Source of the DNA: Pseudidiomarina insulisalsae
GTDB lineage: Bacteria > Pseudomonadota > Gammaproteobacteria > Enterobacterales > Alteromonadaceae
Length of the DNA: 64,000 bases
Assembly (NCBI RefSeq): GCF_003987065.1
Contig: NZ_PIPY01000004.1
Span: 62,001 to 126,000, forward strand
Reading direction: 5' to 3'
In this document: in pieces, positions 1 to 64,000 of the stretch
Layout of the letters: each line of letters starts with the position of its first letter
Position numbering within the stretch: the first letter of the stretch is position 1
The notes under the pieces: generated by a model
Database searches by the model: none
The model's input: the letters and a program-made list of their open reading frames with translations, nothing else
What the model was told of the DNA's origin: nothing
Program-made: the position numbers and the translations under genes

Positions 1-1584
1 CAGCAGTGCGAACAGACCGGTCCAACGCGGGTGTCGCCAGGTCCATTGCAGGCAAGCGCGGTAGCGCGAGGGGCGCTGTTGCTGTTGTTTACGTCCCATG
101 ACGTGGGTCAACTTGCTTGCCAGTAACGGAATCAGCGTTTGTGCGATGAGCAGTGAGGCAATCAGTGACAGACAAATTGCAACGGCGGTATGCTCCAGGA
201 AAATCGTGATATCAATTTTTTTGCCAAAGATGTTAGGCAAAAAGACAATAGCGGTAGTCAGGGTCCCGGCCAGTACCGCCAGTGACACGTTGCCCACCCC
301 CTGCAGCGTTGCTTGTTCTTTACTAGCCCCTTGCTCGACTTCGTACTGAATACTTTCGGTGATCACCACCGCATTATCTACCAGCATACCGATCGAGAGC
401 ATCAGTCCCATCAACGACAGCACATTGAGCGAGTAACCCAAAAAGTACATGCCACCCAGCGCAATACAGATGGCGATGGGAACCGATAGCACCACTACCA
501 GGGTGGTGACAATATTGCGTAAAAACAGATAGAGCACGATAAACGATAGTAGCGCCCCGATCAGACCCGCCATCAGCAGGTCATGCAGTGAGGTTTTGAC
601 GCTGTTCGCGGTGTCGTCCATGATAAACAGGTTGATGCCGTCAAACTGTGGGTCCTGACGGATTTCTTCGACGACGCGCATGACCCGCTCAGAAACCTCA
701 ACCAGATTAGCGGAGGACTCTTTAAAGACATCCATTCCAATGGCATAGGTTTGATCCAGATGGCGGCCATCCGTTTTACGCGGCATTTCACGTTGTACCG
801 TGGCAATGTCTCCTAGCTTTAATGTCGGGGTAACAGGAAACTGACGAATTTCGTATTCGCTCTGGAACTCACCGACCGGGTTGACCAGAATCCGCTCATT
901 GGCATTTTCGATGTAACCCGCGGTCAGCGAGAAATTTGCCGCACGCAAGCGCGCGGTAATATCGGCAGCATTAAGCTGATGCTGGAGCAGGCGTTGCTGA
1001 TCGAGACGAATGACAACCTGCTGCTTCTCAACCCCATATAAAGTGACCTGCGAGACCCCTTCAACGCGCTCAATCGGCCGCCGCAGGCTGCGATCCAGTA
1101 AGTCATAAGCGTTATTCAGATCCCGTTGACTGGAAATACGCAACTGAAATACCGGCATATCTTCAGTGTTGAACTGCATTACCTGTACCCGATCGACATC
1201 ATCGGGCAGCAGGTGCTTGATACCATCGACTTTTTCCCGTGCTTCAATGCTTTTCGCGTTAATGTCTTCATCCCATTCAAATTGCAGGACGACTTCGGCA
1301 CGATCACCGCTGGAGAAGGAACGCATCCGCTTAATATTAGGGATGGTTGCCAGCGCCTCTTCCAACGGTCGGGTGATCAGCCGCTCGACTTCTGCCGGGG
1401 TGGAATTAGGGTATTGGACACTCACCACCATCTCCGGAATTTCAATGCCCGGAAACTTCTCCAGTGGCAGTAGCCGCGAGCTGATCGCGCCAAGCAATAG
1501 CATGGACAGAAACAACATACAGATGGTCACCGGACGTCTGAGGGCCAGGCGTGCCAGACTTGCTCCGATTTCGGCCGCGCTCAT
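1..1584 (-). CDS. RND efflux permease, second of a tandem pair (3' end outside window)
   Basis: Inner-membrane proton-driven RND exporter subunit. 528 codons are present without a stop, so the C-terminal half lies beyond base 1. Translation from 1584 gives a typical RND start (basic residues, RRPVT, first membrane helix) and further in the TM4 motif GMLVDNAVVITES. The start ATG overlaps the stop of the upstream permease (ATGA, 1581-1584), so the two are translationally coupled and probably made in fixed ratio with the adaptor gene further upstream. TM4 has Val-Asp-Asn where AcrB has two adjacent Asp. Substrate cannot be read from the sequence. Confidence 0.93.
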   Translation of the reverse strand, partial: MSAAEIGASLARLALRRPVTICMLFLSMLLLGAISSRLLPLEKFPGIEIPEMVVSVQYPNSTPAEVERLITRPLEEALATIPNIKRMRSFSSGDRAEVVLQFEWDEDINAKSIEAREKVDGIKHLLPDDVDRVQVMQFNTEDMPVFQLRISSQRDLNNAYDLLDRSLRRPIERVEGVSQVTLYGVEKQQVVIRLDQQRLLQHQLNAADITARLRAANFSLTAGYIENANERILVNPVGEFQSEYEIRQFPVTPTLKLGDIATVQREMPRKTDGRHLDQTYAIGMDVFKESSANLVEVSERVMRVVEEIRQDPQFDGINLFIMDDTANSVKTSLHDLLMAGLIGALLSFIVLYLFLRNIVTTLVVVLSVPIAICIALGGMYFLGYSLNVLSLMGLMLSIGMLVDNAVVITESIQYEVEQGASKEQATLQGVGNVSLAVLAGTLTTAIVFLPNIFGKKIDITIFLEHTAVAICLSLIASLLIAQTLIPLLASKLTHVMGRKQQQQRPSRYRACLQWTWRHPRWTGLFALL

Positions 1585-61359: not shown

Positions 61360-64000
61360 TTAATCCAGATCGTTCAACAAGTCATTTAATGGCTTCGGTT
61401 TGGCAAAGTAATAACCCTGACCAAGGTCACAGCCAAGCTCGTTCAGACGAATAGCTTGTTCGGCCATCTCAATACCTTCGGCCACCACTTTAATATTGAG
61501 TTGGCGTGCCATGGCCAGAATGCCGCGGACAATGGCTTCGTCACTCGCTTTGTTGACTACTTCCTGAATGAACGCGCGGTCAATTTTCAATTTACTGACC
61601 GGCAGTTTCTTCAGGTAACTCAAACTGGAAAAACCGGTGCCGAAATCATCAATAGCGACAGACAAGCCCGCCTGGCGGAAGCGTTCGATGAGCTTAATGG
61701 CATGGGCGCTGTCGTCCATCAGAATACTCTCCGTCAACTCAAGCTCAATACATTCGCTGGGGATGTGATGCGACTGTAAGGTGGTGATGACCTGCTCAAA
61801 AAAGTTCGCACGATTAAACTGCAGGGCCGAGAGATTGACAGCCAGACAGAAGCCGGGCCTGCGTTCGAGCAATTGGCTCAGGTCATGACAGGCCTGCTCG
61901 AGGGCCCATTGACTGGCCGGGATGATTTGACCGGTGGTTTCCGCCATCGGAATAAAAATGTCAGGCGGAATGAAGCTGCCATCTTCTAACTGCCAGCGCA
62001 TCAATGCTTCGGCGCCGATAATTTTACCGGAACTTAAGGCGACAATGGGCTGATAAAATAATTGCAGCTGTTCATTATCGATCGCCTGCTGAAATTTACT
62101 GCGCAGATGCACGCTGAAGCGATGGGTCTGCTCAATGCACTGCTGATAAAAATTCAGATAATTGCGGCCCTGGCGTTTGGCCATGGTCATTGCCAGATCG
62201 GCATGCTGCATTAAGCTGACTGCGCTCTGTGAGTTATCGTCAAAGCAGGCAACACCAATACTGGCTGTCAGGTAGACTTTTTGCTTACGCACTTCATAAG
62301 GCTCGGCGATGATCTCCAACAAACGCTCACCCAGCACTGCCACATGATTTGGGCTCTCTTCACGTACGGCTACAACAAATTCATCGCCACCAAAGCGAGC
62401 GGCAAAACCGGGTGGGTTCAGTGCCGCCTGAATGCGCTTGGCGACCAGTTGCAGTACCAGATCGCCAGCTTCAAGTCCCATTGCCTCGTTGATCGACTTA
62501 AACCCGTCAAGGTCAATAAACATGACCGCCCACTGCTGTTTGCCCTGCGTCGCGCCGGTCTCCTGTAACTCTGCACTTAAGCGATGTTCAAAAGAGCGCC
62601 GGTTGAACAGCGAGGTTAACGCGTCATGCTCAGCCTGAAACGCCAGTTGCTGTTTGGCTACATAGCGCTCGGAAATATCCTCATGGATGCCGATAAAATG
62701 TGTTACCTTGCCGCCAGCGTCTGTGACTGGCGTGAGTTCAAGTTGATCCCAAAAGGATGAGCCGTCTTTGCGGTAATGCAGCACTTCAACATGACACTCG
62801 CGCTTACTCTCCAGTGCCTGGCGCACTTCGGTAATGATTTTCGGGTCTGTTTTAGGGCCAATCAGAAAGTCACAGGACTTGCCTGCAATTTCATCGATGT
62901 AATAGCCCGTCATGCGCTGGAATGCCTGATTGGCGTAGATAATGGGTGCATTTTCTTTTCCAGCATCGGAAATAATAATGCCGTTGCTGGTGACATTCAT
63001 GCTGCGCTCTAAAATTTGCAACTGTGCGTCTTTAGCTTTATCTCGGGTCACGTCCTTGGCAATACCAAATACCCCGGTAATTTCATCGTCAATTTTAATT
63101 GGCAGGTTGGTTACCACAATACTCCGCTGCTCGCCCTGACTGGTGTAGACATTAAGCTCGTACTGACAGGTCTCACCGGCCAATGCTTGCTTGAAGTTGG
63201 TTTCAGCAACTTTACGGTCATTGGGACGCACAAAAACACTGAAGTGAGCACCGATAACCTGTTCAGGAGCGGCCTCGAGGTTCGAAAGTACCGCATGGTT
63301 GGCGCTGGTAATCAGCCCATCGGTATCCAGTGAGTAAACGGCATCGGGATGAAAGGTAAAAAGCGAGCGGAACTGTTGCTCGTTGAGTTGTAATTGTCGT
63401 TGCTGATCATGCAGGCGTTGCTGAATACCGCGCAGACGCAGACTGTGCTTGCGCAACATACGATTTTGCTGCGACAGCGCCAAAAAGGCAACACAGAACA
63501 AAAAGCCCGAGAACGCAAGAATCATGCGCAGATTCGAAGCGCTACTGAGGTTGGCAAACGAGTACAGACTGGCGGACAGCGTGACCGGCTCGCTATATGG
63601 AATGTTGAGTTCCGCACTGGCAATCGCAAGTTCGTTACGATGACGCGGTTTACTGTTCTCGAAACTCAGTTGCCGCTCTTCGCCTAATGAGGCATAAATT
63701 TTCAGAAAGTCTGGCAAAACCCGGGTATCCGGGTTCACCAATCTGACCAGATCAAACACCACCAGCAGGTAATAATCTTTCGTTCCTTCCTGAGCAACCG
63801 GCACCAGCATGAGGCCCACCGGCTTACGATCCGACTTAAATTCGTCCGGCGGGATCATCATGGCAATGTCGTTGATCGGCGAGGCGAGCCAACTTTGCAC
63901 TTCCGGGTGACTGATTTGTTCCAGATAAGCGCGCTCATTATTGCGGTGCAACTGCCATTGCGGCACGCCACGCTCATCGAGCAAGTGGATGCCAAGGTAA
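61360..64000 (-). CDS. Membrane sensor PAS-PAS(LOV-like)-GGDEF-EAL, 5' end outside window
   Basis: At least 879 residues with no stop up to the window edge, so the true start is beyond 64000. Numbered from a TTG codon at 63984: extracytoplasmic sensor part to about 150, helix about 150-172, coiled coil about 175-200, PAS about 201-320, second PAS about 325-430, GGDEF (RFGGDEFVV about 528) and EAL (EALMRW about 656). GGDEF is canonical, so a cyclase is likely; the EAL motifs DDFGTGFSSLSYLK and ELTESIL are intact, so both activities are possible. In the second PAS, GKSCDFLIGP (Cys codon 62872-62874) aligns with the LOV cysteine motif. Confidence 0.9.
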   Translation of the reverse strand, partial: YLGIHLLDERGVPQWQLHRNNERAYLEQISHPEVQSWLASPINDIAMMIPPDEFKSDRKPVGLMLVPVAQEGTKDYYLLVVFDLVRLVNPDTRVLPDFLKIYASLGEERQLSFENSKPRHRNELAIASAELNIPYSEPVTLSASLYSFANLSSASNLRMILAFSGFLFCVAFLALSQQNRMLRKHSLRLRGIQQRLHDQQRQLQLNEQQFRSLFTFHPDAVYSLDTDGLITSANHAVLSNLEAAPEQVIGAHFSVFVRPNDRKVAETNFKQALAGETCQYELNVYTSQGEQRSIVVTNLPIKIDDEITGVFGIAKDVTRDKAKDAQLQILERSMNVTSNGIIISDAGKENAPIIYANQAFQRMTGYYIDEIAGKSCDFLIGPKTDPKIITEVRQALESKRECHVEVLHYRKDGSSFWDQLELTPVTDAGGKVTHFIGIHEDISERYVAKQQLAFQAEHDALTSLFNRRSFEHRLSAELQETGATQGKQQWAVMFIDLDGFKSINEAMGLEAGDLVLQLVAKRIQAALNPPGFAARFGGDEFVVAVREESPNHVAVLGERLLEIIAEPYEVRKQKVYLTASIGVACFDDNSQSAVSLMQHADLAMTMAKRQGRNYLNFYQQCIEQTHRFSVHLRSKFQQAIDNEQLQLFYQPIVALSSGKIIGAEALMRWQLEDGSFIPPDIFIPMAETTGQIIPASQWALEQACHDLSQLLERRPGFCLAVNLSALQFNRANFFEQVITTLQSHHIPSECIELELTESILMDDSAHAIKLIERFRQAGLSVAIDDFGTGFSSLSYLKKLPVSKLKIDRAFIQEVVNKASDEAIVRGILAMARQLNIKVVAEGIEMAEQAIRLNELGCDLGQGYYFAKPKPLNDLLNDLD

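Follow-up and report, generated by a model that had tools for sequence, protein, structure and literature searches.

LOV domains bind flavin and respond to blue light. Their flavin is coordinated at its pteridin moiety by a pair of Asn (available text of PMC9098866), and in the LOV phosphodiesterase SL2 the phosphate of FMN is bound by a pair of Arg (PMC8846402, in the part of the paper at hand). Natural relatives that are without one key residue are also known, namely the Gln-deficient LOV receptors, in which the replacements of the Gln include His (PMC9098866), and the Cys-less LOV-like proteins (PMC4682037), both sets being chosen, as far as the accessible portions of these papers go, for keeping the other LOV residues. 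In the KCNH potassium channels (EAG1, ERG and ELK), a PAS domain of LOV-related fold exists without a working flavin, and the accessible part of that study describes the flavin contacts of EAG1 as replaced by hydrophobic residues (PMC10468136). A different use of the fold is described, in the text available, for the cytoplasmic PAS domain of WalK, which regulates its enzyme through His and Asp ligands with zinc, the regulatory site (His, Asp, His, Glu) lying on the domain surface (PMC6624279).

Here, we compare these systems with a PAS domain of the marine bacterium Pseudidiomarina insulisalsae encoded at the end of a 64,000-nucleotide stretch of DNA, the whole of which is referred to as the window. 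This domain, PAS2, shares its fold, an in-register Cys and flanking blocks with the LOV domains of MrLOV (9vf7), Brucella LOV-HK and Chloroflexus Cagg_3753, but where those have Arg, Gln, Asn, Asn and Gln it has Asp, Ile, His, Asp and His. Judged against the accessible parts of the papers cited above, it shares a His for the late Gln with some Gln-deficient receptors but, unlike the Gln-deficient and Cys-less sets, swaps five contacts together with the Cys kept; it resembles the KCNH domains in fold and in the probable want of a working flavin, but four of its five replacements are Asp or His where those of EAG1 are hydrophobic; and it has candidate His and Asp ligands as in WalK, but in the cofactor pocket instead of on the surface and for a metal that is putative. 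The gene and its domains are arranged as follows.

61360..64000, minus strand: PAS-PAS-GGDEF-EAL gene, window part; C-terminal 879 residues of 1167 aa, continuing past the window end
63019..63381, minus strand: PAS1, with boundaries of our own; Pfam PAS_9 stretch ~63046-63348
62647..63018, minus strand: PAS2, the LOV-derived domain, placed by translation, structure searches and predicted fold
62161..62634, minus strand: GGDEF domain, motif ARFGGDEF, by Pfam
61396..62097, minus strand: EAL domain, motif GAEALMRW, by Pfam

The full-length frame of 1167 aa is counted from the first Met, its N-terminus lying beyond the window edge, and in Pfam terms consists of ~490 N-terminal residues without a match followed by PAS1, PAS2, GGDEF and EAL. 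By eye, these ~490 residues (L068 and L084, beyond position 64000) contain hydrophobic stretches resembling several membrane segments and a periplasmic part. The window protein scores 119.7 bits against Pfam PAS_9, above the cut-off of 27. The top NCBIfam match of its window part is the model for the phosphodiesterase DibA, NF045675 (residues 317-874, E 4.2e-143), which this part, without the N-terminus, matches at 477.9 bits, below the equivalog cut-off of 980; the match to the YtvA family blue-light photoreceptor NF052652, a model that extends beyond the LOV domain, is at 129.4 bits and likewise below its cut-off of 250. Because both output domains retain their core motifs (ARFGGDEF and EALMRW), the protein should make or break down c-di-GMP.

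The PAS2 translation (62647-63018, minus strand) reads ...GKSCDFLIGPKTDP...VLHYRKDGSSFWD...FIGIHEDIS..., the LOV block GxNCRFLQG appearing in it as GKSCDFLIG, LxNYxKDGxxFWN as VLHYRKDGSSFWD and FIGVQ as FIGIH. The first-pass annotation of this DNA had reported a LOV-like block in the second PAS of a PAS-GGDEF-EAL protein, in the letters that we find, and had listed the polar flavin contacts Arg, Gln, Asn, Asn and Gln as changed to Asp, Ile, His, Asp and His; all five replacements are present in the translation. The codons of the six pocket residues, read by eye from the window letters, are these.

62872..62874, minus strand: Cys49, LOV adduct position
62869..62871, minus strand: Asp50, replacing the LOV Arg that follows the Cys
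62860..62862, minus strand: Ile53, replacing the LOV Gln of FLQ
62776..62778, minus strand: His81, replacing the first flavin-ring Asn
62746..62748, minus strand: Asp91, replacing the second flavin-ring Asn
62683..62685, minus strand: His112, replacing the late Gln

When PAS2 is compared with the sequences of solved structures by phmmer, LOV proteins come top (best E 1.4e-30, among the best 60 of 158 distinct sequences at E <=0.001). An AlphaFold model built from a 14-row alignment has a mean pLDDT of 93.3 (43.5 from the single sequence), and its best VIA-align match, taken from the best 50 entries of a comparison with 1000 chains, is the LOV domain 9vf7 of Meiothermus MrLOV, with Z 22.2 and an rmsd of 1.0 over 124 residues, which bears out the LOV-like fold originally proposed. 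The pairing with Brucella LOV-HK is free of gaps, residues 1..121 of the model running with 21..141 (121 aligned), and sets C49 on C69, the residue mutated in the title of the structure entry (C69S); the earlier placing of the reactive Cys at the adduct position is thus upheld, and the same pairing rules out a misplaced Cys. For the Chloroflexus LOV entries, an offset of +36 matches C49 with C85, I53 with Q89 and H112 with Q148, a register that comes from range ends only and needs a one-residue gap before residue 49; the titles of these entries name C85A, Q89E, Q148H and others, i.e. mutated residues at the paired positions. Within the PAS2 model, His81, Asp91 and His112 lie in strands 75-82, 88-99 and 105-114, respectively, and Cys49 starts helix 49-52.

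Among 26 genomes of the genus, a profile search (E up to 1e-30) found the long protein in 13, in frames of 1160-1193 aa. Relatives of three frames that neighbour it in the window genome (354, 451 and 193 aa) are present in 13/13 of the 14-kb stretches around the 13 genes, so that the 13 long proteins are positional orthologs; among the remaining frames, those with matches in two or more genomes, some of them cut or antisense, occur in 3 to 10 stretches. The neighbouring genes, together with the GGDEF-EAL tree described below, rule out that paralogs were taken for orthologs. Nine of the 13 carry the recoded signature C-D-[IV]-H-D-H at the six LOV positions, two of these nine domains being letter-identical to loci of Pseudidiomarina atlantica (L007) and P. 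terrestris (L017), and the remaining four read C-[RA]-Q-N-N-Q. Close relatives that keep all LOV contacts had been named at the outset as a sign that the reading was wrong: three of the 13 do keep all six residues, one lacks the Arg only and nine are recoded, and LOV contacts retained in a part of the relatives would date the change without refuting the reading.

A second, shorter relative (frames of 890-903 aa) accompanies the long protein in 9/9 recoded genomes, with the Cys kept in eight of these nine copies, and in two of the four genomes of LOV type; having a LOV-like sensor to spare may have left the long protein free to change, although the numbers are small. The second PAS-GGDEF-EAL copy of the window genome (L002, G000:C1:156242-156595) is itself altered, reading CNQNSL, in which the Cys is kept and Asn, Ser and Leu stand at the Arg, second-Asn and late-Gln positions. 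Because of this alteration the window organism may lack a canonical LOV domain, the pocket residues having been compared for 4 PAS domains of 14 PAS_9 matches. The GGDEF motif also varies among the orthologs, being AGDEF in one recoded protein (L089, G002) and GSDEF and SGDEF in two of LOV type, with one GGDEY as well, and cyclase activity may vary with it.

The main tree was built from the GGDEF-EAL part of 57 rows, with PAS2 excluded, and was accompanied by 200 bootstrap trees. In it, the nine recoded proteins group together as a clade (100/100) within the 13-row ortholog clade (100/100), whereas the four LOV-type orthologs form a single clade in 0% of the 200 bootstrap trees, the LOV-type G006 being the first branch (fork 92/82); in an earlier tree of 14 rows, the order of the LOV-type orthologs was unresolved. 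Since the rows outside the ortholog clade are mostly LOV-type, LOV is the earlier state, and since the nine recoded proteins form one clade beside LOV-type orthologs, we infer one switch from LOV within the genus. A long stem, of 0.56 changes per column, leads to the recoded clade, and no intermediate between the two states was seen among the sampled domains.

Whether this pocket has been held or has decayed can be judged from the whole-protein alignment of the 13 orthologs, which has 1150 gap-free columns. Under a strict rule (both groups invariant, and different), 13 columns separate the groups, including those of the two Asn and the late Gln and hence three of the five contacts (p 1e-5), and under a looser rule 38 of the 1150 do so, with 5/5 contacts among them (hypergeometric p ~3e-8); these p values treat as separate events columns which, when changed on one branch, are not independent. 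The looser rule was chosen after the strict one, and the five positions had been named beforehand by the first-pass annotation. Eight of the looser-rule columns fall within PAS2 (17, 50, 53, 79, 81, 91, 99 and 112), and most of them would face the pocket. Cys49, Asp50, His81, Asp91 and His112 are invariant in 9/9 recoded orthologs, whose mean PAS2 identity is 66% over 36 pairs, while position 53 alternates between Ile (six) and Val (three); as 41 of the 124 PAS2 columns are invariant in the nine, the chance for the five named residues is 0.003, and their invariance is moderate evidence, at the level of sequence, for constraint. Because the recoding is one evolutionary event, the five replacements do not count as independent evidence. 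The dN/dS in PAS2 is 0.043 for the only unsaturated pair, four of five pairs being saturated. LOV paralogs in the genus vary piecemeal, with changing letters at the pocket positions, and random decay of a LOV pocket is not favoured, the replacements being group-specific and fixed where the paralogs change piecemeal. The change in PAS2 thus appears, with good support, to be both concerted and conserved. The domain had been described as 'a degenerate LOV fold now sensing another ligand, or a thiol/redox sensor'; the fold stands and this remains the best family of readings, but 'degenerate' is misleading because five pocket residues are invariant in all nine at the identity just given.

In a wider collection of 143 loci, all picked by similarity to the query, 139 have a tblastn match, giving 122 distinct domains of which 96 bear the Cys. 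Within these 96, the first Asn position holds Asn in 86, His in 9 and Ser in 1, the second Asn in 85, Asp in 9 and Ser and Val in 1 each, and the late position Gln in 79, His in 9 and Leu, Thr, Val, Phe or Ile in the other 8; all nine His at the first Asn and all nine Asp at the second belong to the recoded clade. Partial likenesses occur elsewhere. Asp at the Arg position alone is seen in the Cys-bearing relative L075; L119 and L120, which belong to another family of the order and lack the Cys, show His in place of both the first Asn and the late Gln and retain the second Asn; and L008 and L009 (an alphaproteobacterial MAG and Methylocystis), which lack the Cys too, show Asp for the second Asn and His for the late Gln, the block being similar in other respects. 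Because these four Cys-less domains carry it, the late-position His is not special to the recoded clade. Four Pseudomonas loci (L013-L016) have a PAS domain in which the LOV set (Cys, Arg, Gln, Asn, Asn, Gln) seems complete.

Outside the genus, no recoded domain was found in profile searches of 394 order-level genomes (E up to 1e-26; 30 of 32 matches read for the pocket) and 369 class-level genomes (E up to 1e-30; part of 38 matches read) or in a single-protein search of 295 genomes of the family (E up to 1e-24), the three samples overlapping. The best profile scores outside the genus are 147.1 and 146.8 bits; within it, the recoded nine score at least 220 and the LOV-type domains at most 162. 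A strict DNA pattern, which would miss some recoded orthologs such as L017 (His for Arg after HY), matched the window gene alone when run on 398 genomes from the phylum. Among viral contigs no relative was confirmed, and 381 plasmid records have a tblastn match, all below 60% identity, and stand as matches by similarity. Within the genomes sampled, the recoded type is known from one genus only. The signature is not described in the titles and abstract openings of open-licence literature on LOV, flavin loss or metal or non-heme PAS sensors, and nothing joining Pseudidiomarina and c-di-GMP was found in open-licence literature.

What such a pocket could still do with flavin can be gauged residue by residue. 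One of the phosphate-binding Arg is, we assume, the Arg that follows the LOV Cys, where PAS2 has an acid; as both ring Asn are gone as well and the late Gln is His, we infer that FMN is no longer usefully bound. A Gln-to-His change leaves the flavin of YF1 in place but no adduct forms, in agreement with earlier reports on AsLOV2, and it abolishes the light response of NmPAL (PMC9098866, in the text accessible). Because this His blocks the adduct in YF1, a blue-light role for PAS2 is unlikely and a working FMN photoreceptor improbable; by its residue set the domain would not be a standard LOV photoreceptor, and the recoding points to a present signal other than light.

We consider it probable, then, that PAS2 is a LOV domain re-specified as a constrained, non-photoreceptor pocket and serving as a non-photochemical sensor: a flavin-binding, blue-light domain in a c-di-GMP enzyme would have been converted once, in this genus, with the new pocket retained ever since. 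For the chemistry of that pocket, the version that we rank first, and advance tentatively as possible though in itself unlikely, is a metal or metal-thiolate sensor in which a His-Asp-His (two-His-one-carboxylate) site under the old adduct Cys controls c-di-GMP. His81, Asp91 and His112, on three sheet strands at the former flavin ring edge, would hold a transition-metal ion, Cys49 would sit above it as a labile or redox-active ligand, and either binding or oxidation would displace the sheet and the C-terminal helix, thereby setting the output of GGDEF-EAL. Residues that once touched one ring edge should lie within several angstroms of one another, so that the predicted model leaves room for a two-His-one-carboxylate metal site with a neighbouring Cys. 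Ranked second is a version of the same broad claim that needs no metal, a thiol sensor in which Cys49, activated by the adjacent His and Asp, would detect oxidants, NO or electrophiles; the Cys is invariant in 13/13 orthologs, recoded or LOV-type, and the His and Asp arose in its pocket, but it is the only pocket Cys, its contact with either residue is putative and its presence could be plain inheritance, which makes this account less likely again.

The further readings, heme or another ligand, no ligand at all, and altered flavin, rank close together below these. His and Cys are possible heme ligands, and a heme or organic ligand in the former flavin pocket would be one more version of the broad claim. 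We know of no heme signature, however, in which an acid and two His are fixed together as they are here, and hold such a ligand to be doubtful. In its favour, the available text of PMC10468136 proposes an FMN-to-heme change for the LOV-related PAS of ERG3, and that paper, with the hydrophobic contacts that its accessible part gives for EAG1, also lends something to an equally doubtful account in which PAS2 binds nothing and is a flavin-free structural or relay PAS with a drifting pocket, as in the KCNH potassium channels. The EAG1 PAS (4hoi) does superpose at Z 20.2 and an rmsd of 0.7 over 108 residues, but of the five new residues four have polar or charged side chains and do not vary among the nine, and it is the LOV paralogs of the genus that vary piecemeal, with changing letters. 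Least likely by a little is that PAS2 retains flavin in some altered binding mode, which would serve redox sensing or unusual photochemistry. Position 66, presumably a possible second phosphate contact, is Arg in 8/9 recoded and 3/4 LOV-type orthologs; crystal entries exist for the Chloroflexus LOV with Q148H; and, as far as the accessible texts go, Gln-to-His alone leaves flavin in YF1 (PMC9098866) and flavin reduction elicits a response from Cys-less LOV-like proteins (PMC4682037). In PAS2, however, the replacements extend to both ring Asn and to the Arg and Gln contacts, and an acid stands beside the Cys.

Rarely can a change of signal in a cofactor-binding sensor be observed while the old and the new state both survive; here LOV-type and recoded forms coexist at one syntenic locus in one genus and are separated by a short list of changed pocket residues. 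With one probable switch and few pocket changes, the questions of which changes removed the flavin, which installed the new chemistry and why the Cys stays would be testable with a handful of proteins. For annotation the case carries a warning, namely that a LOV-like block with its Cys does not alone make a blue-light receptor.
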